This document shows, piece by piece, positions 6,796-37,754 of a stretch of 48,901 nucleotides of DNA (its first letter is position 1; each line of letters opens with the position of its first letter). The translations under genes and the position numbers were made by a program. The stretch covers positions 1 to 48,901 of the forward strand of contig JAKAEJ010000007.1 of the NCBI GenBank assembly GCA_021818335.1, read 5' to 3'. The notes under the pieces are model-generated. The model did no database searches. It saw nothing but the letters and a program-made list of their open reading frames with translations, and was not told the DNA's origin. The stretch is from Pseudomonadota bacterium. GTDB taxonomy: Bacteria; Pseudomonadota; Gammaproteobacteria; Xanthomonadales; Rhodanobacteraceae.

Positions 6796-7411
6796 AAAAC
6801 CCCTCCGACTGCTCGCCCTCGGCGATTCCTACACGATCGGCGAGGGCGTGCCGACGCCTGCATCCTGGCCGGCCCAGCTGGCGAATGGCCTGGCGGACAT
6901 TGGCCATCCGGCCGCCCCACCGGTGGTCCTTGCAAAGACCGGCTGGACGACCGACGAGCTGCTCGCCGCCATTCATCCGACTTCCCTGCATCCACCCTAC
7001 GACCTGGTGACGCTGCAGGTCGGCGTGAACGACCAGTACCGCGATCGCGCGCTGGCGTCGTTTCAGGCGGGGTACGACCTGCTCCTGCAGCGCGCGATCG
7101 CGCTCGCCGGCGGGCGGGCCGCGCGGGTGCTGGCGGTGTCCATCCCTGACTGGGGCGTCACGCCCTTCGGTGCCCGGGACCGACGCGGCCCGGCGGCCAT
7201 CGGCAAGGCCATCGACGCGTTCAACGCCTGCGCGGGGGAACGCGCGCGCGCGGCGGGCGTGTGGTGGGCGGACGTCACGGACGCCAGCCGCCGCGCCGGC
7301 TCCGCGCCCGGCATGGTGGCCGCCGACGACCTGCATCCCGGCGCCGGCCAATATGCCCTGTGGGTCCGGGAGTCGCTGCTTCCCGCATCCCGTCGCCTGC
7401 TCGGCGCGTGA
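6788..7411 (+). CDS. SGNH/GDSL-family esterase
   Basis: A 207-residue hydrolase of the SGNH superfamily starting at a GTG that overlaps the aminotransferase stop region. Block I is ALGDSYTIGEG with nucleophile Ser14, block III is VGVNDQYR, and block V supplies Asp180 and His183 (DDLHPG). The N-terminus has no hydrophobic signal, so the enzyme is probably cytosolic, unlike TesA. Family members hydrolyse acyl esters or thioesters. The ADVTDASRRA segment before block V is typical of small bacterial GDSL lipases. The specific substrate is unknown. Confidence 0.82.
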   Translation: MAEKPLRLLALGDSYTIGEGVPTPASWPAQLANGLADIGHPAAPPVVLAKTGWTTDELLAAIHPTSLHPPYDLVTLQVGVNDQYRDRALASFQAGYDLLLQRAIALAGGRAARVLAVSIPDWGVTPFGARDRRGPAAIGKAIDAFNACAGERARAAGVWWADVTDASRRAGSAPGMVAADDLHPGAGQYALWVRESLLPASRRLLGA

Positions 7412-7499
7412 ACCCGGGGAAGCGGGGCATGGCGTCGCACGCCCTGCAGTCGTTGTTGCGAGCAGTTATCATTCGCACCTCTCCCGCGGGATCCCATCC

Positions 7500-8750
7500 A
7501 TGTCCGCCACCCCCCGAGCGCCTCGGGCGCAACCCAGCCGCCGCTGGATCGCGTTCTTCGCCGTGCTGGGCCCGGGCCTGGTGGTCATGCTCGCGGACAC
7601 CGACGTCGGCAGTGTCATCACGGCCGCGCAGAGCGGCGCGCAATGGGGTTACCGGCTGCTCGTCTGGCAGCTGCTGCTGGTGCCCGTCCTTTACATCGTG
7701 CAGGAACTGACGGTGCGCCTCGGCATCTTCACGGGCAAGGGCCACGGCGAACTGATCCGGGAGCACTTCGGTTCTGCCTGGGCCTGGATCTCGGTGGGCG
7801 GGCTTGCCGTGGCCTCGATGGGCGCCATCGTCACGGAATTCTCGGGCGTGGCCGGCGTGGGTGAATTGTTCGGGGTGCCGCGGATCCCAAGCCTTGCCCT
7901 GGCCGCCGCGTTCCTGCTCCTGGTCGTCTGGACCGGCAGCTACCGCCGCGTCGAGCGCGTGGCGATCTTGCTGGGCCTTTTCGAACTGGCATTCGTGTGG
8001 GTCGCCATTCGCGCGCCCCTGGATGGCACCCAGGCGGCCCACGAATTCCTCGCGATGCCCCTGCACCACAGCGGCTACTGGTACCTCGTGGCCGCCAACA
8101 TCGGCGCGGTGATCATGCCGTGGATGGTCTTCTATCAGCAGTCGGCGGTGGCGGACAAAAAACTGACGCCGACCGACTACACGCACGCGCGGCTGGATAC
8201 CGCACTTGGCGCGCTGCTGACCCAGGTCATCATGGCGGCTGTGCTGATGGCCGCCGCGGCGACGCTGGCACGGCAGCACAGCAACGCACCGCTGGCGGAT
8301 GTGGGCCAGATTGCCGGTGCGCTGACCCCGATCCTCGGCCACGAGCTCGGCACCACGCTCTTCGGGCTCGGCATGCTGGGCGCAGCCATGGTGGCCGCGA
8401 TCGTGGTGGCGCTGGCCGCCGCGTGGGGCTTTGGCGAGGTCACGGGCTACAAGCACTCGCTCGAGCACCATCCACTCGAAGCGCCCTGGTTCTACATCGT
8501 CTTTAGCCTGGGCGTGATCGGCGGGGCGGCCGTCGTTGCGCTGGTACCCAACCTCGTGGCCCTCGCGGTGGGCGTCGAAGTCATGAACGCGTTGATGTTG
8601 CCCCTGGTCCTGGGACTGTTGGTGGCCCTGGCCGTGCGCGCGCTGCCGCTGGCCCACCGACCACGCGGGGCCTACCTCGGGGTCGTCATCGGGGTCGTCG
8701 CGCTGACCTCGGTGTTGGGAGTCTACGGCGGCCTTGCAACGCTCCTCTGA
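7500..8750 (+). CDS. Divergent NRAMP-family divalent metal transporter
   Basis: A 416-residue membrane protein with about 11 helices and the SLC11/NRAMP signature GPGLVVMLADTDVGS at the start of helix 1. The canonical metal-binding DPGN motif reads DVGS here (Asp35 kept, Asn replaced by Ser38). In helix 6 the canonical Ala-x-x-Met-x-His is kept as Ala203 and Met206, but the His is replaced by Trp208 (GAVIMPW). Classic NRAMPs import Mn2+ or Fe2+ with protons, and groups with altered metal-site residues include Mg2+ carriers, so selectivity is likely changed. The ATG at 7500 was chosen because it places GPGL at the usual distance from the N-terminus. The gene converges on srkA with 12 bases between stops. 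Confidence 0.85.
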   Translation: MSATPRAPRAQPSRRWIAFFAVLGPGLVVMLADTDVGSVITAAQSGAQWGYRLLVWQLLLVPVLYIVQELTVRLGIFTGKGHGELIREHFGSAWAWISVGGLAVASMGAIVTEFSGVAGVGELFGVPRIPSLALAAAFLLLVVWTGSYRRVERVAILLGLFELAFVWVAIRAPLDGTQAAHEFLAMPLHHSGYWYLVAANIGAVIMPWMVFYQQSAVADKKLTPTDYTHARLDTALGALLTQVIMAAVLMAAAATLARQHSNAPLADVGQIAGALTPILGHELGTTLFGLGMLGAAMVAAIVVALAAAWGFGEVTGYKHSLEHHPLEAPWFYIVFSLGVIGGAAVVALVPNLVALAVGVEVMNALMLPLVLGLLVALAVRALPLAHRPRGAYLGVVIGVVALTSVLGVYGGLATLL

Positions 8751-10734: not shown

Positions 10735-10765
10735 TTGAACTAGCATTATACATGTCTAAAACATG
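10735..10765 (+). promoter_or_regulatory. Promoter with overlapping CATGT-N5-ACATG operator before the XRE/hyf operon
   Basis: TTGAAC (10735-10740), a 16-base spacer and TAAAAC (10757-10762) form a plausible promoter. CATGT-CTAAA-ACATG (10751-10765) is a perfect 5-bp inverted repeat over the -10 element. The next gene downstream encodes a helix-turn-helix protein, so autoregulation of the whole operon is a reasonable inference. Confidence 0.45.
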
Positions 10766-10776
10766 AGTATTGATGT

Positions 10777-11046
10777 TTGATAACGTCATCTCAGTTGCGG
10801 GCTGCCCGCGCGCTACTCGGCCTCGACCAGCGACAACTGGCCGAGCGCTGCGCGCTCTCCGTCCCCACGATCCAGCGCATGGAGGCGAGCGAAGGGACGA
10901 TCCGCGGGACGGTGGACTCGCTGACCAAGCTCATCCGCGCGCTGGACGACGCCGGGGTCATCCTGATCGATGAGGGTGCGCCCAGTGAAAGCGGCGGACG
11001 GGGCGTCCGCCTGAAGGCCGCGATGCCACCGGGGGCCGGACCATGA
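10777..11046 (+). CDS. Small XRE-family transcriptional regulator leading the hyf-like operon
   Basis: An 89-residue protein that is essentially one helix-turn-helix domain. MITSSQLRAARALLGLDQRQLAERCALSV is the Cro/C1-type start, and VPTIQRMEASEG is the recognition helix region. The TTG at 10777 is the only sensible start because an in-frame TGA lies two codons upstream, and it gives the normal family N-terminus. No good ribosome binding site precedes it. The stop overlaps the ATG of hyfB (ATGA), so regulator and complex are one translationally coupled unit. It probably regulates this operon through the overlapping palindrome just upstream. The C-terminal 20 residues are Gly/Ser-rich and unlikely to be structured. 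Confidence 0.82.
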   Translation: MITSSQLRAARALLGLDQRQLAERCALSVPTIQRMEASEGTIRGTVDSLTKLIRALDDAGVILIDEGAPSESGGRGVRLKAAMPPGAGP

Positions 11047-13028
11047 ACGCCAGCTGGGCGCTGCCGCTGGCGGGCTTGGCCGTCGCCGCGGCGCTGGGCT
11101 CGGCTGCCAGCAGCCTGCTCGCCGCGCGGTGGCCGCGGGCACTGACGGTGCTGGCTTTCCCGATGCTCGGCGTATCGGGCATTGCCGCGCAGGCGGCGGG
11201 TCTCATCGCGCTGGCCAGTGGCGCGCGGCAAACGACCCTCCTGCCGGCAGGCCTCCCCGGCCTGCCCTGGCACGTCGCCATCGACCCACTGGCCGGTGCC
11301 TTCCTGCTGATGCTCGGAGCCGTGCTCCTGCCGGTCGCCCTTTACGGTCCGGGCTACGTGCGCGCATTCCGCAACGGCCGCGACTCGCTGGCCACGCTGG
11401 GCGCATGCACCGGCCTGTTCGTCGCCGGAATGCTCGGCGTCCTGCTCGCGGCGGACGCCTTCCTGTTCATGCTTGCCTGGGAGCTGATGTCGCTGGCTTC
11501 CTATTTCCTGGTCTGCTTCCAGCACGACCAGCCGGAAAGCCGCCGCGCGGCATTCGTCTATTTGCTCCTCGCCCAGGTCGCTGGCCTGCTGATCCTGATG
11601 GCCTTCGGCGTCCTGGCGACGACCGGCGGGTTTGCCTTCCCGGCCATGCGCGCCGCACATCCCGATGCCACCTGGGCGGCCATCGCCTTCATCCTGGCGC
11701 TCATGGGCTTCGGGACCAAGGCAGGGCTCGTGCCCCTGCATGTGTGGCTTCCCGAGGCGCATCCCGCGGCGCCCAGCCACATTTCGGCCCTGATGTCGGC
11801 GGTGATGCTCAAGGTGGCGCTGTATGGCTTCCTTCGCGTGGTCTTCGACCTGCTCGGGCCACCCCAATGGGGCTACGGGATCACCCTGGTCGTGGTGGGC
11901 GCGACCACCGCCCTCCTCGGCGCGATGCTGGCCGTCCAGCAGGTCGACCTCAAGCGGTTGCTGGCTTATTCGTCGATCGAGAACCTTGGCACGGTGTTCC
12001 TCGCGCTCGGCCTTGCGGAGATCTTCCAGGCGGCAGGGCACCCGGCGATGGCGGCGCTGGCGCTGCTCGCCGCGCTCTTCCAGGCATTGAGCCACGCACT
12101 GCTGAAGGCGCTGCTTTTCCTGGGCGCGGGCGCCGTGCAGCATGGCGCGCATACCCGCAGCCTTGAACAGATGGGCGGCCTGCTGCGACGCATGCCGAGA
12201 ACGGGCTGGATGTTCCTGGTCGGCTGCCTGGGCATGTCGGCGGTGCCGCCGCTATCCGGCTTCGTTTCGGAATGGCTCACGTTCCAGGCGGCGCTGCAGG
12301 CTTGGCGGTTGCACGACAGCCTGCTGCGCATCCTCGTGCCGCTGGCCGCCGCATCGCTCGCCCTGACCACGGCGCTGGCGGCGGTGGTGTTCGTGCGTGC
12401 CTTCGGCATCGGCTTCCTGGGTCGCGCCCGCAGCCGGCAGGTGCGCCATGCGCACGAAGTCGGCGATGGCATGCTCGCTGGGCAGGCATGGCTCGTCGCC
12501 AGCATCGCGGGCGTTGCGCTTTTCCCAGTCCTCGTCGCGAGCCTCCTCGGCAGCGCCGTTCTGCAACTGACCGGCCGCGTGCCTGGCAGCCCGGGGTGGT
12601 TGTGGTTGACGCCGCTCGGACCGACGACGGCAAGCTACGCGCCGCTGCTGGTGCTCGCCGTCCTGCTCGGCGTCGGCCTGCTCGGATGGGTCGTCCTGCG
12701 ACCGCGACGAGGCGCCCCGGTTCGACGCGTGGATGCGTGGGGCTGCGGGTATGCACCGCCGACGCCCGACATGCAATTCAGCGCCATGGGCTTCGCGCAA
12801 CCCCAGCGGCGCGTGTTCGCGCCGGTTTACGCGCTGCGGGAGGGGTTCGCGGGCAGCGCATATGAGGTCGTGGCCGGCGACCGCAGCTGGAGCTGGATCT
12901 ATCGCCCCCTCGGCGCGCTCATGGATCGGACTGCCGACCTCGCCCGGCGCCTGCAGGCGGGACACGTGCGCCGCTACCTCGCGTGGTCGCTGCTCACCCT
13001 GCTGCTGCTCCTATGGATCGTCTCCTGA
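11043..13028 (+). CDS. hyfB: Hydrogenase-4-like proton-pumping subunit B (NuoL/HyfB family)
   Basis: A 661-residue antiporter-like membrane subunit with about 14-16 helices. The conserved proton-channel block FGTKAGLVPLHVWLPEAHP contains Lys226. KRLLAYSSIENLG and ALSHALLKALLFL follow, as in HyfB, HycC and NuoL. A Glu in LAWELMSLASYF corresponds to the helix-5 glutamate of these subunits. The C-terminal part has a soluble loop (CGYAPPTPDMQFSAMGFAQP) typical of the HyfB branch, followed by a last helix. In complex I and group 4 hydrogenases such subunits move protons or sodium when driven by the peripheral arm. The gene begins inside the stop of the XRE gene and overlaps hyfC by 16 bases. Confidence 0.93.
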   Translation: MNASWALPLAGLAVAAALGSAASSLLAARWPRALTVLAFPMLGVSGIAAQAAGLIALASGARQTTLLPAGLPGLPWHVAIDPLAGAFLLMLGAVLLPVALYGPGYVRAFRNGRDSLATLGACTGLFVAGMLGVLLAADAFLFMLAWELMSLASYFLVCFQHDQPESRRAAFVYLLLAQVAGLLILMAFGVLATTGGFAFPAMRAAHPDATWAAIAFILALMGFGTKAGLVPLHVWLPEAHPAAPSHISALMSAVMLKVALYGFLRVVFDLLGPPQWGYGITLVVVGATTALLGAMLAVQQVDLKRLLAYSSIENLGTVFLALGLAEIFQAAGHPAMAALALLAALFQALSHALLKALLFLGAGAVQHGAHTRSLEQMGGLLRRMPRTGWMFLVGCLGMSAVPPLSGFVSEWLTFQAALQAWRLHDSLLRILVPLAAASLALTTALAAVVFVRAFGIGFLGRARSRQVRHAHEVGDGMLAGQAWLVASIAGVALFPVLVASLLGSAVLQLTGRVPGSPGWLWLTPLGPTTASYAPLLVLAVLLGVGLLGWVVLRPRRGAPVRRVDAWGCGYAPPTPDMQFSAMGFAQPQRRVFAPVYALREGFAGSAYEVVAGDRSWSWIYRPLGALMDRTADLARRLQAGHVRRYLAWSLLTLLLLLWIVS

Positions 13029-13969
13029 GCCTCTTGCTGGCGCTGCTGCAGCCGCTGGCCCTGCTGGCCGCGGCGCCGTTGTTCACGGCCGTCGTCGGTC
13101 GCTTCAAGGCGCGGCTGCAGAACCGTCGCGGCGTGCCACTGAAGACCCCATACCGCGAACTGCGCAAGTGGGCCGCGAAGGAAGCGGTGGTGGCGCGCAC
13201 GGCGTCACCGCTCTTCCGCGCCGCGCCCTACATCGTGTTCGCCTCGACCCTGCTGGCTGCGGCTGCGTTGCCCGTCTGGGAGACCGCGTCACCCGGCGCC
13301 CATGTCGCGGACGCCATCGTCCTGATCGGCCTGCTCGGCCTGGCCCGATTCATGCTCGTCCTGGCCGGACTTGACGTCGGCACGCCTTTTGGCGGGATGG
13401 GCGCCTCCCGCGAAATGCTGGTGGCCAACTTCGCCGAGCCCGCGCTGCTGCTCGTGGTCTTCACTCTGGCGATGACCACCCACACGACCAACATCGGCGC
13501 CATGGCGGCGGCGACACTTCACGGCGCACCTGTCCTGCGGCCCTCGTACATGTTCGCCCTGGCAGCCCTTCTCATGGTCGCCGTGGCCGAATGCGGCCGC
13601 ATCCCGGTGGACAATCCGAGCACCCACCTAGAGCTGACCATGATCCACGAGGGGATGGTGCTCGAATACAGCGGCCGGCACCTCGCGCTGATGGAATGGG
13701 CTGCCCAGTTGAAGCTGCTGCTGTTCGCAGTCCTCACCGTCGACCTGTTCCTGCCCTGGGGCCTGGCCACGCGCATGAGTCCCACGGCCTGGCTGCTGGC
13801 GCTGCCGCTGCTGCTGGTGAAGCTCGCAGGCCTCGCCCTGGTACTGGCGGTCAGCGAGACGGTCCTGGCCAAGATGCGCCTCTTCCGCGTCCCCGGTTAC
13901 CTGACCCTGGCATTCCTGCTGGCGCTGCTCGGGTTGCTCAGCCATGTGATCCTGGAGTCGGCGCCATGA
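13013..13969 (+). CDS. hyfC: Hydrogenase-4-like subunit C (NuoH/HyfC family)
   Basis: A 318-residue membrane subunit of the NuoH/HycD/HyfC family, which connects the peripheral arm to the pump modules. GRFKARLQNRRGVPL at the N-terminus, GTPFGGMGASREMLVANFAEPA and the acidic loop AECGRIPVDNPSTHLELTMIHEGMV are the family hallmarks. The last provides the charged residues near the quinone/cluster cavity in complex I. About eight helices are visible. Length is close to E. coli HyfC. The ATG at 13013 was chosen for its family-like N-terminus; it lies within the 3' end of hyfB. Its own stop overlaps hyfE (ATGA). Confidence 0.92.
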   Translation: MDRLLSLLLALLQPLALLAAAPLFTAVVGRFKARLQNRRGVPLKTPYRELRKWAAKEAVVARTASPLFRAAPYIVFASTLLAAAALPVWETASPGAHVADAIVLIGLLGLARFMLVLAGLDVGTPFGGMGASREMLVANFAEPALLLVVFTLAMTTHTTNIGAMAAATLHGAPVLRPSYMFALAALLMVAVAECGRIPVDNPSTHLELTMIHEGMVLEYSGRHLALMEWAAQLKLLLFAVLTVDLFLPWGLATRMSPTAWLLALPLLLVKLAGLALVLAVSETVLAKMRLFRVPGYLTLAFLLALLGLLSHVILESAP

Positions 13970-14670
13970 ACCTTGGCACGCTTCCCCTGGTCGACCAGGC
14001 CGTGCTGGTCCTGGCAGCGATGGCGCTGTTCAGCGCCTTTGCGCTGCTGGCGCAGTCGCGGCTGCTCGCGGCGATCCACGTCTTTGCCTGGCAGGGCTTC
14101 CTGGTCGCGGCCGTGGCGGCGCTGACCGGAGCGGCCAGCCGTGACCCGCACCTGTATCTGTCCGCGGCCATCACCCTGGGGCTCAAGGTCTTGCTGATCC
14201 CCTGGATGCTGCATCGCCTGCTGCGGCGGCTCTCGCTGGAGCGGCAGGCCGACCCGCTCGCGTATCCGGCCCTGACGCTGCTTGCCGCCGCCGCCATCGT
14301 TGTGTTCGCGGACTGGGTTGCCGCACCTGTGGCGCAATTCGAACATTCCGCCACGCGCAACGTCATTGCCATCAGCCTGGCCATCGTTCTGCTGGGACTC
14401 CTGATGATGGTCGTCCGCCGACAGGCGCTGGCCCAGGTCCTGGGATTCATGGCCATGGAGAACGGATTGTTCCTGGCCGCCGTCGCAAGCACCCACGGCA
14501 TGCCGCTGGTCGTCGAGCTGGGCGTTGCGTTCGACGTCCTGGTCGCGATGGTGCTGTTCGGCGTTTTCTTCCTGCAAATCAAGGACAGCATCGACAGCCT
14601 CGACGTGGACCGCCTCAGCCAGCTCTCGGCCAGCATCGAGCGGGACGAGATCACGGAGCAGCGGCCATGA
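13966..14670 (+). CDS. hyfE: Hydrogenase-4-like subunit E (NuoK-like fusion, HyfE family)
   Basis: A 234-residue membrane protein with about seven helices and the HyfE pattern. An N-terminal helical region (LLAQSRLLAAIHVFAWQGFLVA) is followed by a NuoK-like part (VVRRQALAQVLGFMAMENGLFLAA) that carries the conserved membrane Glu in MAMENG. HyfE has no counterpart in hydrogenase-3 (Hyc), so its presence places this complex on the hydrogenase-4/Ehr/Mrp-like side of the family. It overlaps hyfC and hyfF by four bases each, implying coordinated stoichiometry. Confidence 0.9.
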   Translation: MNLGTLPLVDQAVLVLAAMALFSAFALLAQSRLLAAIHVFAWQGFLVAAVAALTGAASRDPHLYLSAAITLGLKVLLIPWMLHRLLRRLSLERQADPLAYPALTLLAAAAIVVFADWVAAPVAQFEHSATRNVIAISLAIVLLGLLMMVVRRQALAQVLGFMAMENGLFLAAVASTHGMPLVVELGVAFDVLVAMVLFGVFFLQIKDSIDSLDVDRLSQLSASIERDEITEQRP

Positions 14671-16142
14671 TCTGGCTTCTGCTGGCCGTATTCACGCCGC
14701 TCGCAGGCACGCTGCTCCTCGCGTTGATTCCGCGCGCGCGCATGGCGGGCCTCGCCAATCTCGCGCTGTCCGCGCTCAGCCTCGCGGGTTCGCTGGGCCT
14801 GGCGCTGCGGGTTCTCCACCGAGGGTCCCTGCACGGACACGGCTTCCTCGTCGATCCCTTCAACGTCTACCTGGTCGTGCTCACCGCGTTCGTGGGCCTG
14901 ACAACGGCGGTGTTCTCCCGCCCTTACATGGAACACGTGCATCTCGCGGAAAAGCGCGTCAGCCCCGCGGGGATGCGGCTCTATCACAGCATGTACCAGG
15001 GCTTCCTCTTCACCATGCTTCTCGCGCTGACCACGAACAACCTAGGCATCCTCTGGGTTGCCGTGGAAGGCGCGACGCTGGCCACGGTCCTGCTGGTATC
15101 ACTGTACCGGACACCGGCGGCCATCGAGGCGGCATGGAAGTACTTCATCCTGTGCGGCGTCGGCATCGCGCAGGCACTGTTCGGCACCGTCGCGCTCTAT
15201 TTCGCAGCCCAGCACGTGCTTCCCCCCGGGGCCAACGGCCTGGACTGGAGCACGCTCTACGCCATCGCCCCCCAGCTCGAGCCTCGCGTGATGGTCGTCG
15301 CGTTTGCGTTCCTGTTGGTGGGCTACGGCACCAAGGTCGGGCTCGTGCCGTTGCACAGCTGGCTGCCGGATGCCCACTCGGAGGGCCCGACCCCGATGTC
15401 GGCCGTGCTCTCGGGCCTGCTCCTGAACGTGGCGCTGTACGCGGTCATTCGCATGAAGATGCTCACTGACGCCGCGCTCGCCGCCAGCCGCACACCCGCG
15501 CTGGCAGGACACCTCCTGATGGGCTTCGGCCTTCTCACCTTCCTCACCGCGGTCGTTTCGCTGCACCGCCGCCACGACATCAAACGCCTGTTCAGCTATT
15601 CGTCGATCGAGCACATGGGCCTCATGACCTTCGGGTTCGGCGTGGGTGGGCCCTTGGCCACGTTTGCGGCGCTTCTGCACATGCTGGTCCATGCCCTGAC
15701 CAAGAGCTCGATCTTCGTGACCGTGGGCCATGCCACGCACATTGCCCGGACGCAGCGCATCGAACGCATCCGCGGTTTGATCCGTACCCAGCCGGCCGTC
15801 GGCTGGGGCCTGCTGCTCGGGGTCGTGGCCATCGCGGGGTTCCCGCCTTTCGGCATCTTCGCCAGCGAATTCCTGCTGCTCTCGGCGACCATGGCATCGT
15901 GGCCCTGGCTCGCTCCCATGCTGGTGCTGGGGCTGGTCATCGCCTTCGCGGGCCTGTTCCGCAACATCCAACCCATGGTGTTCGGGACGCCGCCAGTGGA
16001 CCAGCAAGCGGTACGCGCCAACATGCTGCCCGTCATGCTCCACCTGGCGCTGGTCCTGTCACTGGGCATCGTCATCCCGGCCGTGCTTTCGAACTGGCTT
16101 GGCGCCGCGACGATGTTGATCACCGGGGCCGCATTGCGATGA
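14667..16142 (+). CDS. hyfF: Hydrogenase-4-like proton-pumping subunit F (NuoM/N-like, HyfF family)
   Basis: A 491-residue second antiporter-like subunit with about 14 helices. The conserved block YGTKVGLVPLHSWLPDAHSEGP carries Lys223, and DIKRLFSYSSIEHMGL and HMLVHALTKSSIFV follow, as in HyfF and NuoM. WVAVEGATLATVLLVSLY carries the helix-5 glutamate. Together with HyfB it gives this complex at least two ion-translocating channels, more than hydrogenase-3 has. It overlaps hyfE and hyfG by four bases each. No missing channel residue was noticed. Confidence 0.92.
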   Translation: MIWLLLAVFTPLAGTLLLALIPRARMAGLANLALSALSLAGSLGLALRVLHRGSLHGHGFLVDPFNVYLVVLTAFVGLTTAVFSRPYMEHVHLAEKRVSPAGMRLYHSMYQGFLFTMLLALTTNNLGILWVAVEGATLATVLLVSLYRTPAAIEAAWKYFILCGVGIAQALFGTVALYFAAQHVLPPGANGLDWSTLYAIAPQLEPRVMVVAFAFLLVGYGTKVGLVPLHSWLPDAHSEGPTPMSAVLSGLLLNVALYAVIRMKMLTDAALAASRTPALAGHLLMGFGLLTFLTAVVSLHRRHDIKRLFSYSSIEHMGLMTFGFGVGGPLATFAALLHMLVHALTKSSIFVTVGHATHIARTQRIERIRGLIRTQPAVGWGLLLGVVAIAGFPPFGIFASEFLLLSATMASWPWLAPMLVLGLVIAFAGLFRNIQPMVFGTPPVDQQAVRANMLPVMLHLALVLSLGIVIPAVLSNWLGAATMLITGAALR

Positions 16143-17704
16143 GTCCGGCACGCCCGACGCTCGCCGCCGCGGTTGCGGACCTCGTGCTCGCCGGCCCGGA
16201 AGCACGCCCCGGACTGGGCGGGGTGCTGGCCTGCGACGTGGCCCCCGCCGATTGGGCCCGCTCCGCGGCAGCGATGGCGGCAAATGGCGGCCGCCTGGCC
16301 GCACTGTGGATCGACCCGGGTGCGCAGCCTTGGCGGGCTCTGGCCCTGTTCGCCAACGGCGGTGACTACGTGCTCCTCCAAGCCGAACTGGCCGAGGATC
16401 CGACGCGGCTGCCGTCGCTCAGCCCCCATTTCGCCGCGGCCGAACGCATCGAACGCGGCCTGCACGACTTGCTGGGCTTGGAATTCGAGGGCCTTGTCGA
16501 CCGCAGGCGCTGGGTCCGCCACCGCGCCTGGGGCGCCGATGAGCATCCGCTGCGCGCGGCGCCGGTCCCGCCTGCCCGCGTGCCCGCGGATACCGACTAC
16601 GCCTATGCACCAATCCACGGCGAGTCCGTGCATCAAGTCCAGGTCGGTCCGATCCACGCAGGCATCATCGAGCCGGGGCAGTTCCGGTTCGCCACCGTCG
16701 GCGAGCAGGCATTGCGACTGGAGCTGCGCCTCGGCTTCGTCCATCGCGGCGTGCAGGCCCAGGCGGTCGGTCGCAACGCCGACGGCCTGCTGCGGCTGGC
16801 GACGCGCGTGTCGGGAGACAGCGCGGTCGCCCATGCATGGGCTGCGGCCATGGCGCTGGAGCGGGCCGCGACGACGGAGCCTCCGGCGCGGGCACTCGCG
16901 TTGCGTGCCCTGCTCCTCGAGCGCGAACGCGTGGCGAACCACCTCGGTGATGCCGGCGCAATCGCCAACGATGTGGGATTCAGTTTTGCGCAAATGCAGT
17001 TCAGTGCGCTGCGCGAGCGCTGGCAGCGCAGCAACGCCATGCTATTTGGCCATCGCCTGCTGTTCGACACCCTGGCGCCGGGCGGCGTCCGCTGCGACCT
17101 CGATGGCGAGGGCATGGCTCGCCTGCTGCGCGACCACCGGGAACTGCGCGAGTCCATGACGCCCCTGACGGACATCGTCCTCGACCACCCTTCGCTCGAC
17201 GACCGGTTGATCGGAACCGGCGTGCTCAGCGCCGAGGATGCCCGGCAGCTGGGCTGCATCGGCTACGTGGGTCGCGCCAGCGGGCAGGACGTCGACCTCC
17301 GCCGCGATGCACCGCACGCGCCCTACGACAGCCTGGACGTCCGGGTTCCCCTCTATGCGCAAGGCGATGTCGCGGCGCGACTGCGCGTCCGGCTGGACGA
17401 GATCATGGTGTCGCTGGACCTGATGGACCGGCTGCTGGCAAGCCTCCCCGCGGGCCCCGTCGCGACGACCTGGGAACCACCGGCGCGCGGCGGCGCGGGC
17501 CTGGGGCTGGTCGAGGGCTGGCGCGGCGAAACGATCGCCTGGGTAAGCCTCGACGGGAGCGGTCGCGTTACCTGCTACCAGCCGCGGGACCCGAGCGTGA
17601 TGAACTGGCCGGCGCTGGAAAGGCTGCTGCCCGGCAACATCGTTCCGGACTTCCCCGTGTGCAACAAGTCGATCAACGGCAGCTATGCCGGACACGATCT
17701 CTGA
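16139..17704 (+). CDS. hyfG: HyfG/HycE-like large subunit lacking the NiFe cysteine pairs
   Basis: A 521-residue NuoC-NuoD-like fusion. The N-terminal ~170 residues are NuoC-like. The NuoD/large-subunit part begins near AYAPIHGESVHQVQVGPIHAG and GQFRF. In true group 4 hydrogenases the first metal-binding pair lies in a motif like RxCGxC; here the same place reads RVSGDS (residues 223-228), with both Cys replaced by Ser. The C-terminal pair (DPCxxC in HycE) is replaced by a tail with one cysteine, Cys508 (VCNKSINGSYAG), and the protein ends without a cleavable extension. It therefore should not carry a NiFe centre and is unlikely to be a hydrogenase. It resembles the large subunit of Ehr-type complexes. 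It overlaps hyfF by four bases; hyfI follows after nine. Confidence 0.9.
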   Translation: MSPARPTLAAAVADLVLAGPEARPGLGGVLACDVAPADWARSAAAMAANGGRLAALWIDPGAQPWRALALFANGGDYVLLQAELAEDPTRLPSLSPHFAAAERIERGLHDLLGLEFEGLVDRRRWVRHRAWGADEHPLRAAPVPPARVPADTDYAYAPIHGESVHQVQVGPIHAGIIEPGQFRFATVGEQALRLELRLGFVHRGVQAQAVGRNADGLLRLATRVSGDSAVAHAWAAAMALERAATTEPPARALALRALLLERERVANHLGDAGAIANDVGFSFAQMQFSALRERWQRSNAMLFGHRLLFDTLAPGGVRCDLDGEGMARLLRDHRELRESMTPLTDIVLDHPSLDDRLIGTGVLSAEDARQLGCIGYVGRASGQDVDLRRDAPHAPYDSLDVRVPLYAQGDVAARLRVRLDEIMVSLDLMDRLLASLPAGPVATTWEPPARGGAGLGLVEGWRGETIAWVSLDGSGRVTCYQPRDPSVMNWPALERLLPGNIVPDFPVCNKSINGSYAGHDL

Positions 17705-17713
17705 GGTACTCCC

Positions 17714-18247
17714 ATGCTGCGCATCCTCAATCGCGTCGCCCGCACCGGCACCCTGACCGAGGCACTCGATGACACGCCGCTCCAGTCCCTGGGCATCGCG
17801 GTGCGGCGACGACTGGATGCGCGCTTCGCCGGCAGCCTGGCCATTCGCCACGTCGACGCGGGATCCTGCAATGGCTGCGAACTCGAACTGCACGCGCTGG
17901 GCAATCCCTACCACGACCTGGAACAGTACGGAATTCGCTTCGTGGCATCGCCACGCCACGCCGACGCGCTGCTCGTGACGGGCGTGGTGAGCCGCCACAT
18001 GCAGGCGGCCTTGCTCGATGCCTGGCAGGCCATGCCGGCACCGAAGCTGGTGATCGCCGCCGGAAGCTGCGCGTGCGATGGCGGGGAATTCGGTTGCAGC
18101 TATGCCACGGTCGGGGCCGTGGATGCGCTGCTGCCCGTGGATGTGGCGATCGCCGGCTGCCCGCCGACACCCGTGGCCTTGCTCAAGGGCCTGCTCGCCG
18201 CCCTGGGCCGCGAGGGCCGACTTACGGGACGCGACCGCCCTCGCTGA
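17714..18247 (+). CDS. hyfI: HyfI/NuoB-like small subunit with a [4Fe-4S] cluster
   Basis: A 177-residue small subunit of the NuoB/HycG/HyfI family. Candidate cluster ligands are retained: Cys52 and Cys55 in GSCNGCELE, Cys119 in AAGSCACDGG and Cys149 in IAGCPPTP. Cys121 and Cys128 are additional. The proximal [4Fe-4S] (N2-like) cluster should therefore be present even though the large subunit has lost its NiFe site, so electron transfer rather than pure ion transport remains possible. It is the last gene of the operon. Its 3' end overlaps the oppositely directed lipoprotein gene by 26 bases. No ferredoxin-like HyfA/HyfH gene follows. Confidence 0.92.
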   Translation: MLRILNRVARTGTLTEALDDTPLQSLGIAVRRRLDARFAGSLAIRHVDAGSCNGCELELHALGNPYHDLEQYGIRFVASPRHADALLVTGVVSRHMQAALLDAWQAMPAPKLVIAAGSCACDGGEFGCSYATVGAVDALLPVDVAIAGCPPTPVALLKGLLAALGREGRLTGRDRPR

Positions 18248-34412: not shown

Positions 34413-37226
34413 TCAGATCCGCACGCGGACGCCCAACTGGAAGTACCGTCCGACGATGCCCTGCTGCTGATAGGTGGGGTTGTAGTTCACCCCTGCATAG
34501 TCGATCGGATCAAAGCCGGGGCCGCGATCGAAGAGGTTCTGGATCCCCCCGAAGACGTCGATGTTCTTGGTCACGTGGTAGCTGCCATTGAGATCGACGT
34601 AGGTGAACGAGGGCACCGTGCAGTTCGCGGGCAGGTTGCCGTTGGGACCTTGCGAGAAGCAGGAATTGTTTCCCGTGAGATCCGGCACGCTCATGTACAG
34701 ATGGCTCACGTAATAGATCGACGCCGTCGCCGACCACCGGCCATCGGTGAGCGTGTTCGACCATGAGGCGCGCCACTTTGGCGTCCCGGCGCCGGAGGAG
34801 AGGATGTAGGGTCCTTGGGTGCCGACCATCTGGATGTAACCCTGGCCAAAGTCCTTCTTCCACGTCAGCATGTCGGTGGCCGTGAATTCGCTGATCCACT
34901 CGAGGTTGTCCGCGAAGTGGAAGGTTCCGCGGACATCCAAGTCGACGCCCTTGGTCAACAGGGAATTGGCATTGATGTAGGGCGCTCCCACCAGAATCGG
35001 GCGCAGCGGCGCCGAAGGAGCGTTGGGATCCGGCAGATCGTACTGGATCGTGTAACCGGGCGGGATCGGCTGTCCGTTGAAGTAGGCATTGAGCGGCACG
35101 CCGACGTTGCCGCCGGTGATGATGTTGTTGACCTTGATGTGGTAGTAGTCGATGGTCGCACTCAGGTTCGGGAGCGGTTGCAGTACCGCACCCAGCGTGT
35201 AGCTCGTCGAGGTCTCGGGCTTGATGTTCGGATTGGCCGTACTCAGCACCGCCAGCGAGTAAGGCTGGGTGTACGCGTCGTTGTTGTGCAGAGCCGCGAA
35301 ATTGGCCGGCACCTGCTCGGTGATGAAGCCCGTCGTCTGGCTGGATCCATTCTCGGCGAAACTGGGGGAACGGAAGCCCTTGGAAAAGGTGCCGCGCAAG
35401 GCCAACATCTTGAAGGGCTGCCACTTCAGGCTGGCCGACGGTGAGAAGTTGGTGCCAAAGTCCGAATAGTCACTGAAGCGTCCGGCGACGTCGGCCTCCA
35501 GCGAGCGCAGAAGCGGCGCCTGGAACTCGCCGTAGAGGGACCCGACCTTGTGCGAGCCGATGATCTGCGTGTTGCCCAAGCCGAGCGCTTCGTTGCCTGG
35601 GTTGAGCGCTGGCTCGTACTGCGATTCATGTCGAACACTGGCACCCAGGGCCAAGGCGCTATGGCCGCCCTCCAACTTCCACAGGCGATGCGAAACGGTC
35701 AGCGATGCTTCCTGGAGGTCCGTCGTGGCCGTGTTGCTGATCGGAGGCGCCAAGGCCGCCAGCACGGCGGGCGTGTTGGACGCCGGGTCGACGAAACTGT
35801 AGGCACCGGTCTGGATGTCGTTGAGCAACGTCGGGATATTGAGGTAACCGTAACTGTTCTCGGTCAGATAGGTGTGGTTGATCACCGCAGCAGCGTTGTA
35901 TCGCCAGCTGTCGAAGTAGCCATGGAGGTCGGCAACGAGCCGCATGTTGTGGTTGGTGTAGTTGATGATGCCAAAGCCAGGCAAGTCACCGAATGCGTAG
36001 TTCAGCAGAGCGTACTGACCTGCCGCTGCAAACGGATCGTTGGGATTGGGCTGACCATTGAGCAAGGTCGGCGGGAGCGCGATCGCGCCGAAATTGACCG
36101 GGGTGGAGAGCTGGATCTGCGATGGGGCGGCGTACGACTGCGTCTGCACCTGCACGTAGCTGGCGTTGAGGTATCCCGTGGTGTCGTCATTGATCTTGAA
36201 TGTCACGCGCCCATCGATCGCGTAACGCGTCAATTTCGGCGACGCCGCGCCGTACTGGGCGGCGAAGTTCTGCGTGCAATATGTCCCGACACCCGCCGTC
36301 GTCACCTGCTGGCTAGCCGGGCCGCACGGCCGCAACGGCTGCCACAGCGTGCCAGGGATCTGTTGACCCGAGAGCAGGTTTCCGGGCTGACCCAGCGTAG
36401 CGGGCGCCACGGAACCATAGATCGAGCCCGAGTTGAGGAACGGTTGACCACCCACTGCATTGAAACCGCCGAGGGAGGACAGGTTCGCCGTATTGAACGG
36501 GAATCCGCGGTCGCGAAGGAAGATCGGGTTGATGTTCTGGTACTCGACGTCGATGTACTCGTTGTGGCCGTCCCGCTCGAGGTTACCGGTACCCGCCATG
36601 AAGTTGCCGCGGGTCATGCTGCCGCCTCCGTGCTGCGACGTGCCCGCCTCGGCGCTCGCTTCCACGCCATGGAAGGTACGGCGCATGATGATGTTGACCA
36701 CGCCGCCAATGGCGGCCGAGCCATAGATCGAGGAGGAGCTCGCCTTGAGGACCTCGATGCGTTCAACCGCATTCAACGGGATGGAATTGAGATCCGTGAA
36801 CGACCGCTGGCCATCGTCGTCCAGGGCGTAGGGCGCGGTGCGCTGGCCATCGATCAGCACCAGGGTCGAGCCCACGTTGAGGCCGCGCAGGGCGACGCCC
36901 GAAGCGCCGGCCGCAAAACCGAGCGAGAACGCGTTGGGAATCGTGCCGCTGTTGTCGGCGCTGATGGCCCGGATGACCTGCGACACGGACGTGAAACCGC
37001 TCCGCTTGATTTGCTCTGACGTGATGACCTGCACGGGGGCAGGCGTCTCGACATCGATCTGCGGAATCAACGAACCGGTGACCATGATGGTCTTCAGGCG
37101 CTCGACCTTCTTCGCCGGCGCGGCGTTGCCCGTACTGGCCGCTTGCGCAAAGACGGCGCCTGTCGCCAACGACAGCGCAAGACCGATGCAAACGGACAGC
37201 TTGCTGCGAGACAGATTGGTATTCAT
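34413..37226 (-). CDS. TonB-dependent outer-membrane receptor
   Basis: A 937-residue receptor with a signal peptide (KLSVCIGLALSLATGAVFAQ). A TonB-box-like ERLKTIMVTGS segment is followed by the plug domain (PAPVQVITSEQIKRSGFTSVSQVIRAI ... GVALRGLNVGSTLVLIDGQR ... ERIEVLKASSSSIYGSAAIGGVVNIIMRR). A long beta-barrel ends in YFQLGVRVRI. The FTSVSQVI...ALRGL style matches the large receptor group, common in Xanthomonadales, that takes up oligosaccharides, peptides or other nutrients rather than classical siderophores. No adjacent siderophore or degradation genes define the ligand. The ATG at 37226 has GAGAGG just upstream; an in-frame ATG at 37238 is a poorer alternative. A strong hairpin follows the gene. 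Confidence 0.93.
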   Translation of the reverse strand: MNTNLSRSKLSVCIGLALSLATGAVFAQAASTGNAAPAKKVERLKTIMVTGSLIPQIDVETPAPVQVITSEQIKRSGFTSVSQVIRAISADNSGTIPNAFSLGFAAGASGVALRGLNVGSTLVLIDGQRTAPYALDDDGQRSFTDLNSIPLNAVERIEVLKASSSSIYGSAAIGGVVNIIMRRTFHGVEASAEAGTSQHGGGSMTRGNFMAGTGNLERDGHNEYIDVEYQNINPIFLRDRGFPFNTANLSSLGGFNAVGGQPFLNSGSIYGSVAPATLGQPGNLLSGQQIPGTLWQPLRPCGPASQQVTTAGVGTYCTQNFAAQYGAASPKLTRYAIDGRVTFKINDDTTGYLNASYVQVQTQSYAAPSQIQLSTPVNFGAIALPPTLLNGQPNPNDPFAAAGQYALLNYAFGDLPGFGIINYTNHNMRLVADLHGYFDSWRYNAAAVINHTYLTENSYGYLNIPTLLNDIQTGAYSFVDPASNTPAVLAALAPPISNTATTDLQEASLTVSHRLWKLEGGHSALALGASVRHESQYEPALNPGNEALGLGNTQIIGSHKVGSLYGEFQAPLLRSLEADVAGRFSDYSDFGTNFSPSASLKWQPFKMLALRGTFSKGFRSPSFAENGSSQTTGFITEQVPANFAALHNNDAYTQPYSLAVLSTANPNIKPETSTSYTLGAVLQPLPNLSATIDYYHIKVNNIITGGNVGVPLNAYFNGQPIPPGYTIQYDLPDPNAPSAPLRPILVGAPYINANSLLTKGVDLDVRGTFHFADNLEWISEFTATDMLTWKKDFGQGYIQMVGTQGPYILSSGAGTPKWRASWSNTLTDGRWSATASIYYVSHLYMSVPDLTGNNSCFSQGPNGNLPANCTVPSFTYVDLNGSYHVTKNIDVFGGIQNLFDRGPGFDPIDYAGVNYNPTYQQQGIVGRYFQLGVRVRI

Positions 37227-37754
37227 GGGGCCTCTCATGGGTCTGTGTGGTGAACCGAGGGAAGCGCCGACGGCGCCGGTTGCGGCTGGTGTATTTGGGC
37301 GCGCGGATCGACCATCCCCTCCCGCGCAAACGCCCCCGCCGTCACACGACGGTAACGCTCCATCCAAGGAGCAACGCAGCCTCTATTTCGCTGTAAATAA
37401 AGCGTATTCGCAGCGATAGCATTTCGACAGCTGGATCAATCGCCGCGTTCACGCTCGTTATGCGCGAAGAGTCCGGAGGGAGCCAACGTAGGGACGCCCG
37501 CTATCGCGCCATCAGACCGCCGAATACGCGGAGTCTGCGGCAAGCGTTGGCTGAACGCGGATATCCGTCGAGACACCGTGGCGCGCCGCTTCAGGCGCGA
37601 CCGTCCTGTCGGTCGTGTGCCATCGTCATCTGGGCCGCTCCCGGCAAGCGAAAGGAGCCCGTCTCGCCACCCTTTGCGCCCCAATCATCCTTGCCGCCCG
37701 TCATTGGTGCTGGCGACCCTGCCGATCGGGATCAGACGCCTCTACACTTCGGCC
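37227..37754. other. Intergenic region between the receptor and ubiA (divergent promoters expected)
   Basis: 528 bases between two divergent genes. An AT-rich segment near 37385-37405 with TCGCTG (37388-37393) and CAGCGA (37411-37416) as an imperfect dyad is the most likely promoter region of the receptor. No clear -35/-10 pair, Fur box or small gene could be supported. Part of 37578-37754 is open in frame with ubiA but reads as Arg/Ser-rich non-homologous sequence. Confidence 0.4.

Follow-up and report, generated by a model that had tools for sequence, protein, structure and literature searches.

Energy-converting hydrogenase-related (Ehr) complexes are a known class, as the earlier note discussed below had held, and both their gene clusters and the missing nickel site have appeared in print (PMC7735108, PMC4378227, PMC12542776). 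In Acidithiobacillus ferrooxidans, the large subunit of a hyfBCEFGI cluster is rated a non-hydrogenase by HydDB (PMC7735108); a six-gene hyf cluster is described for Cupriavidus (PMC2864759) and further hyf clusters for Nitrospira (PMC5596200, PMC12542776), the absent motif being remarked upon in the latter paper. Large subunits without Ni-binding motifs are reported for the Ehr of Sulfobacillus (PMC4378227), and the Ehr of Geobacter (GSU0739-45), with subunits of the same kinds as the hyf set, shows greater abundance on formate (PMC7894505). A partnership between formate dehydrogenase (FDH) and Ehr has been proposed in a paper that also terms MBX a hydrogenase-related complex (PMC6349859), and Ehr is mentioned for ammonia oxidisers (PMC10432482). 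As far as the relevant passages of these accounts go, the class, its set of genes and the lack of a Ni site are thus already known. Here, we analyze a hyf operon in a 48,901-nucleotide stretch of DNA from a member of the Rhodanobacteraceae (the window: contig JAKAEJ010000007.1 of assembly GCA_021818335.1, positions 1 to 48,901), which is part of a genome of 2.19 Mb on 90 contigs that is 77% complete. We consider it fairly probable that the six gene products assemble in the membrane as an Ehr complex, belonging to the complex I superfamily and pumping ions in a redox-coupled manner, and that this complex would neither make nor use H2. Ehr is a widespread class and the window operon, judged by its genes, is a well-preserved member of it.

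The published clusters of Acidithiobacillus, Cupriavidus and Nitrospira carry the same six gene names as the window operon. Their neighbors differ, with a carbon monoxide dehydrogenase in Candidatus N. nitrosa and, by locus tags, cbbM in A. ferrooxidans; and whereas a gene of the XRE type stands beside the window operon, the passages on these clusters mention none. Compared by published description, the Ehr complexes of Geobacter and Sulfobacillus share with the window NuoL- and HyfE-type membrane subunits as well as a large and a small subunit. Hydrogenases 4 and 3 of Escherichia coli (Hyf and Hyc) have homologous genes, the same HycE fold and the same fused NuoC/NuoD layout, but the window operon has no Ni cysteines, no C-terminal peptide and, between the XRE gene and hyfI, no hyfA, hyfD, hyfH or hyfJ and hence no ferredoxin-type HyfA/HyfH subunit. 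Complex I (NuoCD/Nqo4, NuoB, NuoH, NuoL/M and NuoK) has homologous pump, connector and NuoB-type subunits; the window operon, however, is without the NADH and NuoI modules, and the residues at Nqo4 positions 38 and 87 are changed. Among the archaeal complexes, the L chains of MBH and MBX/MBS (6cfw_L and 6u8y_L) match window HyfG. They differ in retaining, we assume, a NuoI-like ferredoxin subunit along with additional subunits of the Mrp type.

An intact six-gene operon

The six hyf genes lie in the order B-C-E-F-G-I on the + strand at 11043-18247, with no internal stops and packed tightly as one operon, every neighboring pair overlapping except hyfG and hyfI. An earlier note, made from the letters of this DNA, had described a complete hyfBCEFGI-like operon encoding two pumps and NuoH-, NuoK-, NuoCD- and NuoB-type subunits, and the family matches support each gene; the region given there starts at 10735 and also covers the XRE gene, the hyf genes proper beginning at 11043. 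The first of them, hyfB (11043-13028, +), encodes a NuoL-like antiporter-type pump subunit of 661 amino acids (aa) that matches NCBIfam NF005086, 'hydrogenase 4 subunit B', with 724.6 bits (cut-off 667). It is followed by hyfC (13013-13969, +), a NuoH-like connector (NADHdh PF00146, 122.3 bits for the in-frame slice 13001-13969) whose start is uncertain between ATG at 13013 and GTG at 12983, and by hyfE (13966-14670, +), a NuoK-like membrane subunit of 234 aa with a sub-threshold match to NF008556, 'hydrogenase 4 membrane subunit' (89.1 bits against 136; E 3.6e-25). A second antiporter-type pump subunit, of 491 aa, is encoded by hyfF (14667-16142, +; NF005045, 'hydrogenase 4 subunit F', 702.8 bits, cut-off 543). 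The large subunit of 521 aa comes from hyfG (16139-17704, +), a fusion of NuoC- and NuoD-like parts (Complex1_30kDa and Complex1_49kDa) without Ni ligands, and the NuoB-like small subunit of 177 aa, with one [4Fe-4S] cluster site, from hyfI (17714-18247, +; Oxidored_q6 PF01058, 104.7 bits). A NuoB-like small subunit with cluster ligands, a NuoH-like connector and antiporter-like pumps are the subunits by which an Ehr complex is recognized, and the operon has all of them. In agreement with the earlier note, no hyp gene and no hyfA, hyfD, hyfH or hyfJ was seen among the open reading frames (ORFs) beside the operon; a promoter and terminator scan gave nothing beyond chance.

The large subunit lacks the nickel site

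The Ni-ligand cysteines of E. coli HyfG and HycE align to Ser225, Ser228, Ser515 and Gly518 of window HyfG, the hydrogenase pairs RxCGxC and DPCxxC being replaced by RVSGDS and GSYAG. Among 92 orthologues, position 225 is Ser in 80, Ala in 7, Cys in 4 and Val in 1; position 228 is Ser in 66, Thr in 24 and Ala in 2; position 515 is Ser in 80, Ala in 8 and Asn in 4; and position 518 is Gly in all 92, so that at most one of the four cysteines survives in any orthologue. The missing pairs, which the earlier note had seen in the window, are by these alignments a family trait and not a peculiarity of the window. The C-terminal maturation peptide is absent too: all 92 sequences of type A, as we call the window type of HyfG (B and C being further types within the family), stop one residue past Asp520, a point beyond which E. 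coli HyfG continues. In group 4 [NiFe] hydrogenases, this peptide is, we assume, removed upon Ni insertion. The NiFe-hydrogenase family model gives HyfG 18.7 bits, under its cut-off of 25.8.

Positions of the quinone site are altered as well. In a profile alignment with Thermus Nqo4 that is ungapped here, Nqo4 positions 38, 87 and 139 correspond to HyfG 177, 226 and 278. We take Nqo4 His38 and Tyr87 to be quinone ligands and position 139 to be part of the quinone site. At these positions, type A sequences have Ile177 (92 of 92), Gly226 (90 of 92) and Asp278 (92 of 92); six NuoD sequences of the same genus have Tyr at 226, Asp at 278 and, unless gapped, His at 177. The AlphaFold model of HyfG has a predicted local distance difference test (pLDDT) value of 91.9, with segments below 50 at 172-178 and 518-521, and its top fold match in the PDB is HycE (7z0s_E, template modeling score 0.92), E. 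coli NuoCD coming next. Its residues mark window HyfG as neither a hydrogenase large subunit nor one of the ordinary complex I type.

Conservation and a proposed mechanism

The large subunit is, as far as substitution patterns tell, under preservation and not in decay. The ratio of nonsynonymous to synonymous substitution rates (dN/dS) lies at 0.06-0.23 in 23 of 24 gene-by-pair comparisons, the other being 0.47 (HyfI, in two closely related genomes). In HyfG, D227, D271, N509, K510 and G518 are found in all 92 type A sequences and are unlike the residues of E. coli HyfG, HycE and NuoD, and N513 is found in 90. The HyfI cluster cysteines C52, C55, C119 and C149 are kept in 85 of 85 sequences. 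Charged residues of the membrane subunits are similarly fixed: E147, K226, K304, H351, K355 and E410 of HyfB are invariant in 73 sequences; D110, D131, E152, E203, D210, E217, E223 and E228 of HyfC in 77; and E134, K223, K264, K306, H342, K346 and E401 of HyfF in 80; in HyfE, E184 is found in 76 of 76 and E165 in 75 of 76. The cluster cysteines, the conserved pump and connector charges, the HyfG-specific fixed residues, the HycE- and NuoCD-like fold, the low dN/dS and, as described below, the separate clade and the scarcity of ferredoxin-type motifs around the operon are what we count in favor of an Ehr pump.

In the mechanism that we propose, we infer the redox drive and the pumping, along with its direction and ion, from the sequences. 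Electrons would enter or exit at the single [4Fe-4S] cluster of HyfI and, since no NuoI/HyfH-type ferredoxin subunit is encoded, an external electron carrier or enzyme would have to dock on HyfI directly. A partner substrate other than H2, and probably other than a quinone in the standard complex I binding mode, would react in the part of HyfG that corresponds to the former active site and is now altered, around Asp227, Asn509-Lys510-Ser511 and Tyr516, probably together with Asp271 and Asp278, which may line the cavity in the layout that we envisage. Charge movement would then run from HyfC to HyfE, HyfF and HyfB, and these would move H+ or Na+.

Distribution and phylogeny

A HyfG homologue (E <= 1e-10) is present in 19 of 61 genomes in a panel of the window genome and 60 relatives, and of the 12 further genomes from the genus, 10 have type A as assigned by sequence. 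The family also includes type B (9 sequences) and type C (3), and all three types occur in the genomes G008 and G012. Counting the loci of types B and C (L019-L021 and L024-L032), a genome of the same genus can hold as many as three different large subunits of the Ehr-like kind; in G012, B and C face each other on opposite strands of a single 17 kb contig (L149, 1-17222), and type B at L147 has a cyclopropane-synthase-like gene and a histidine-phosphatase gene in its vicinity.

Scanning named genomes yielded at least 573 relatives among at least 588 candidate stretches, and 80 loci were kept, assigned by title to the Proteobacteria in the wide sense and the Nitrospirae. The complete six-gene set is found in identical order at 64 of the 80, a recurrence that speaks against a chance reading of the window; among the remaining 16, 13 run into a contig end and three (L036, L058 and L060) are without genes for reasons that contig ends do not explain. 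By this comparison of gene order, which the earlier note had called for, the six genes are the usual set of the type A clade, and the description of the operon as a reduced version with a minimal subunit set does not hold; Geobacter Ehr subunits of the same kinds are also named in print (PMC7894505). In an even sample of the class, type A occurs in 44 of 369 genomes (E <= 1e-100; window genome counted). Among 72,556 plasmid records, 90 contain a HyfG homologue (E <= 1e-20; types A, B and C pooled) and 22 of these are predicted to be conjugative, so that related complexes can ride mobile replicons. A tblastn search with window HyfG matched Cupriavidus metallidurans CH34 at 46.8%.

The phylogenetic tree comprises 61 rows: 39 randomly drawn type A sequences (window included), types B and C, two E. 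coli hydrogenases, six NuoD and two others. Types A, B and C each form a supported group, and the type A clade (support 100/99) branches separately from NuoD and the E. coli pair HyfG/HycE, in a tree where some long branches meet and the midpoint root serves the drawing only. The separate clade, the lost cysteines and the lack of a C-terminal extension in 92 of 92 sequences all favor the interpretation of the earlier note, that of a non-hydrogenase complex of the Ehr type.

The XRE gene and an operator-like motif

Directly before hyfB, and overlapping it by four bases, lies a gene for an XRE-type helix-turn-helix (HTH) protein of 89 aa with a TTG start (10777-11046, +; HTH_3, 27.9 bits, cut-off 23). 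A homologue stands directly before hyfB at 20 of the 71 type A loci with sufficient upstream DNA, by title 9 from the window genus, 7 from other gammaproteobacteria and 4 from alphaproteobacteria, and the overlap is of four bases in 12 of the 20. On plasmids of Methylovirgula and Rhizobium, too, an annotated HTH gene lies directly upstream. At the start of the window's XRE gene, we find an operator-like motif, TGATGTTT (10771-10778, +), which may serve as its operator. On either strand, the motif is present in 10 of the 20 XRE upstream regions, against a mean of 0.09 and a maximum of 2 in shuffled sequences (the shuffle preserves base composition only, and the loci tested are related): 6 of 9 in the genus, being absent from the other 3, 4 of 7 in other gammaproteobacteria and 0 of 4 in alphaproteobacteria. 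The XRE protein is a probable regulator of the hyf operon and TGATGTTT is likely its operator in gammaproteobacteria; the protein would probably control its own operon through these sites. Of the coupled XRE regulator proposed in the earlier note, the gene and its coupling to hyfB stand, and the regulatory role is probable.

Genomic neighbors

A genome search for hyp genes and a second [NiFe] hydrogenase, also suggested in the earlier note, finds both. Contig C16 (L194) of the window genome encodes the large and small subunits of a [NiFe] hydrogenase, hypB, hypD, hypF, a nickel transporter-like gene and a maturation protease; the hyp genes, sitting there with a separate hydrogenase, are present in the genome yet unlinked to the hyf operon. 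No NuoD exceeds the cut-off in the 77% complete window genome but, as 9 of 13 genomes of the genus have it, loss of complex I is unsupported as a reason for retaining hyf.

ORFs with ferredoxin-type motifs lie inside the operon or no more than 5 kb away from it at only 4 of 93 type A loci and, by eye, share no common gene. A Pfam scan covered 104 of 127 same-strand neighbors, with those of type B operons included and XRE and SulP genes set aside beforehand; the 23 left out are mostly second neighbors and neighbors of other types, and the 171 opposite-strand neighbors were clustered, a few of them being scanned. No redox enzyme family was matched by more than two of the 104. The families that were are spermidine synthase-like (6), DUF2490 (4), response regulator (3) and histidine kinase ATPase (3). 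In several betaproteobacteria, a spermidine-synthase-like gene lies near the operon (L061, L071, L077, L081, L082, L086, L101, L109, L111 and L193). The window itself also encodes an Nramp-type metal transporter (7305-8750) and a TonB-dependent receptor (34413-37367).

Discussion

That the operon encodes a cryptic [NiFe] hydrogenase with unusual ligands is scarcely credible: hypB, hypD, hypF and a maturation protease do exist in the window genome, but they accompany the separate hydrogenase on C16, and HyfG has all four cysteine positions replaced and no C-terminal peptide. A reduced complex I, in which quinone would be reduced in an altered site, is rather unlikely. The best NCBIfam models for HyfG are NuoD and FpoD, every one of them sub-threshold, and the Asp278 at the Nqo4 139 position is invariant; on the other hand, the presumed ligand positions Nqo4 38 and 87 are taken by Ile177 and Gly226, no NuoI-type input gene is shared nearby, and the tree, with a root chosen for drawing only, puts type A on the hydrogenase-like side and not with NuoD. 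We are also doubtful that formate dehydrogenase supplies the electrons, as proposed for Geobacter and Riflemargulisbacteria. The Geobacter proteins are indeed more abundant on formate (PMC7894505), the partnership is already proposed in print (PMC6349859), and one genome (G304; 1 of 44 among the matches listed) carries genes for both partners on a single contig, at a distance of about 15 kb. Formate dehydrogenase (E <= 1e-150) is, however, no more common with type A (23 of 44 genomes) than without it (149 of 325; p 0.43), for which reason we rejected it as a partner; at the same threshold, the 77% complete window genome has no match, and no FDH family is among those matched by at least two of the 104 same-strand neighbors.

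A pump coupled to the uptake of bicarbonate or CO2, partnered in some lineages by SulP or RuBisCO, would liken the complex to DAB and NDH-1MS, systems that couple a pump to inorganic-carbon uptake; we regard this as quite improbable. A SulP transporter gene adjoins the operon at 16 of 93 type A loci and, at 11 of them (L046, L048-L052, L055, L063, L064, L070 and L110), it is co-directional and less than 700 bp upstream of hyfB; the best PDB match of the L055 SulP is 6ki1, titled a low-affinity sulfate transporter, which we take to be BicA. Yet half of these loci (8 of 16) are Methylococcales by title, the others being scattered, and in the even class sample, where some hyf contigs are short, a single genome of 43 has SulP near the operon, and its contig clearly matches only hyfF and hyfG, with a weak 36% HyfB match that overlaps hyfF. 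As a general partner, SulP is rejected on this count. For RuBisCO, the case starts from a Thiomonas metagenome-assembled genome (L073, 6374-10902) in which a form II-like RuBisCO gene and a VWA-domain (CbbO-like) gene come directly after hyfI. This order agrees with the locus tags given in papers on A. ferrooxidans, which place hyf (AFE2149-54; PMC2621215) next to cbbM (AFE_2155; PMC6458275) and, in strain NFP31, hyf-type genes (ANFP_19460-19510) next to cbbM (ANFP_19520; PMC8759370), so that the two would adjoin in that species. L073 is the sole locus whose DNA contains a RuBisCO motif, however, and genome-wide the enzyme is not enriched with type A (25 of 44 against 162 of 325; p 0.42; matches in G150 and G389 are only weak and RuBisCO-like), and it, too, is rejected as a general partner. 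No ORF across the loci has a beta-carbonic-anhydrase motif, the scanned neighbors in the window include neither SulP nor RuBisCO, and DabA (DUF2309) and CupA/B are not among the 25 families listed for the 104 neighbors, no genome search having been aimed at them. Very improbable, finally, is the stronger version in which type A Ehr would itself be an energy-coupled CO2/bicarbonate complex, the HyfG cavity with its invariant Asp, His, Asn and Lys performing carbon chemistry or gating beside a NuoL-type pump. If true, type A Ehr would be a further solution for inorganic carbon alongside DAB and NDH-1MS, and in several lineages it would be genetically associated with SulP or form II RuBisCO.

We therefore return to the Ehr ion pump as our preferred explanation, mindful that several points weigh against it. 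Ile177 and Gly518 fall within the low-confidence segments of the HyfG model, and their placement rests on the sequence alignment. As Asp278 is invariant, an altered quinone site is still compatible with the data. The conserved membrane charges recall the Glu-Lys-Lys-Glu/Lys series of NuoL/M/N, whose roles as pump residues we assume. Neither RuBisCO nor formate dehydrogenase held up as a partner, and no candidate for electron donor or acceptor emerged from the neighbor and co-occurrence comparisons. For the window genome, the case is built on sequence comparisons and a predicted structure.

In the passages of the literature available to us, we came across no earlier account of the residue signature or of the links to XRE and SulP, SulP alone having been searched by word and most subscription literature lying outside the scope. 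The XRE motif and the links to SulP and cbbM provide leads on regulation and on a partner that go beyond the published ideas of formate and CO. The signature, consisting of Ser/Ser/Ser/Gly in place of the four cysteines together with D227, D271 and N509-K510, sets the clade off from NuoD and the E. coli hydrogenases. Type A complexes are widespread and carry hydrogenase names in annotation, and such names can mislead metabolic models.

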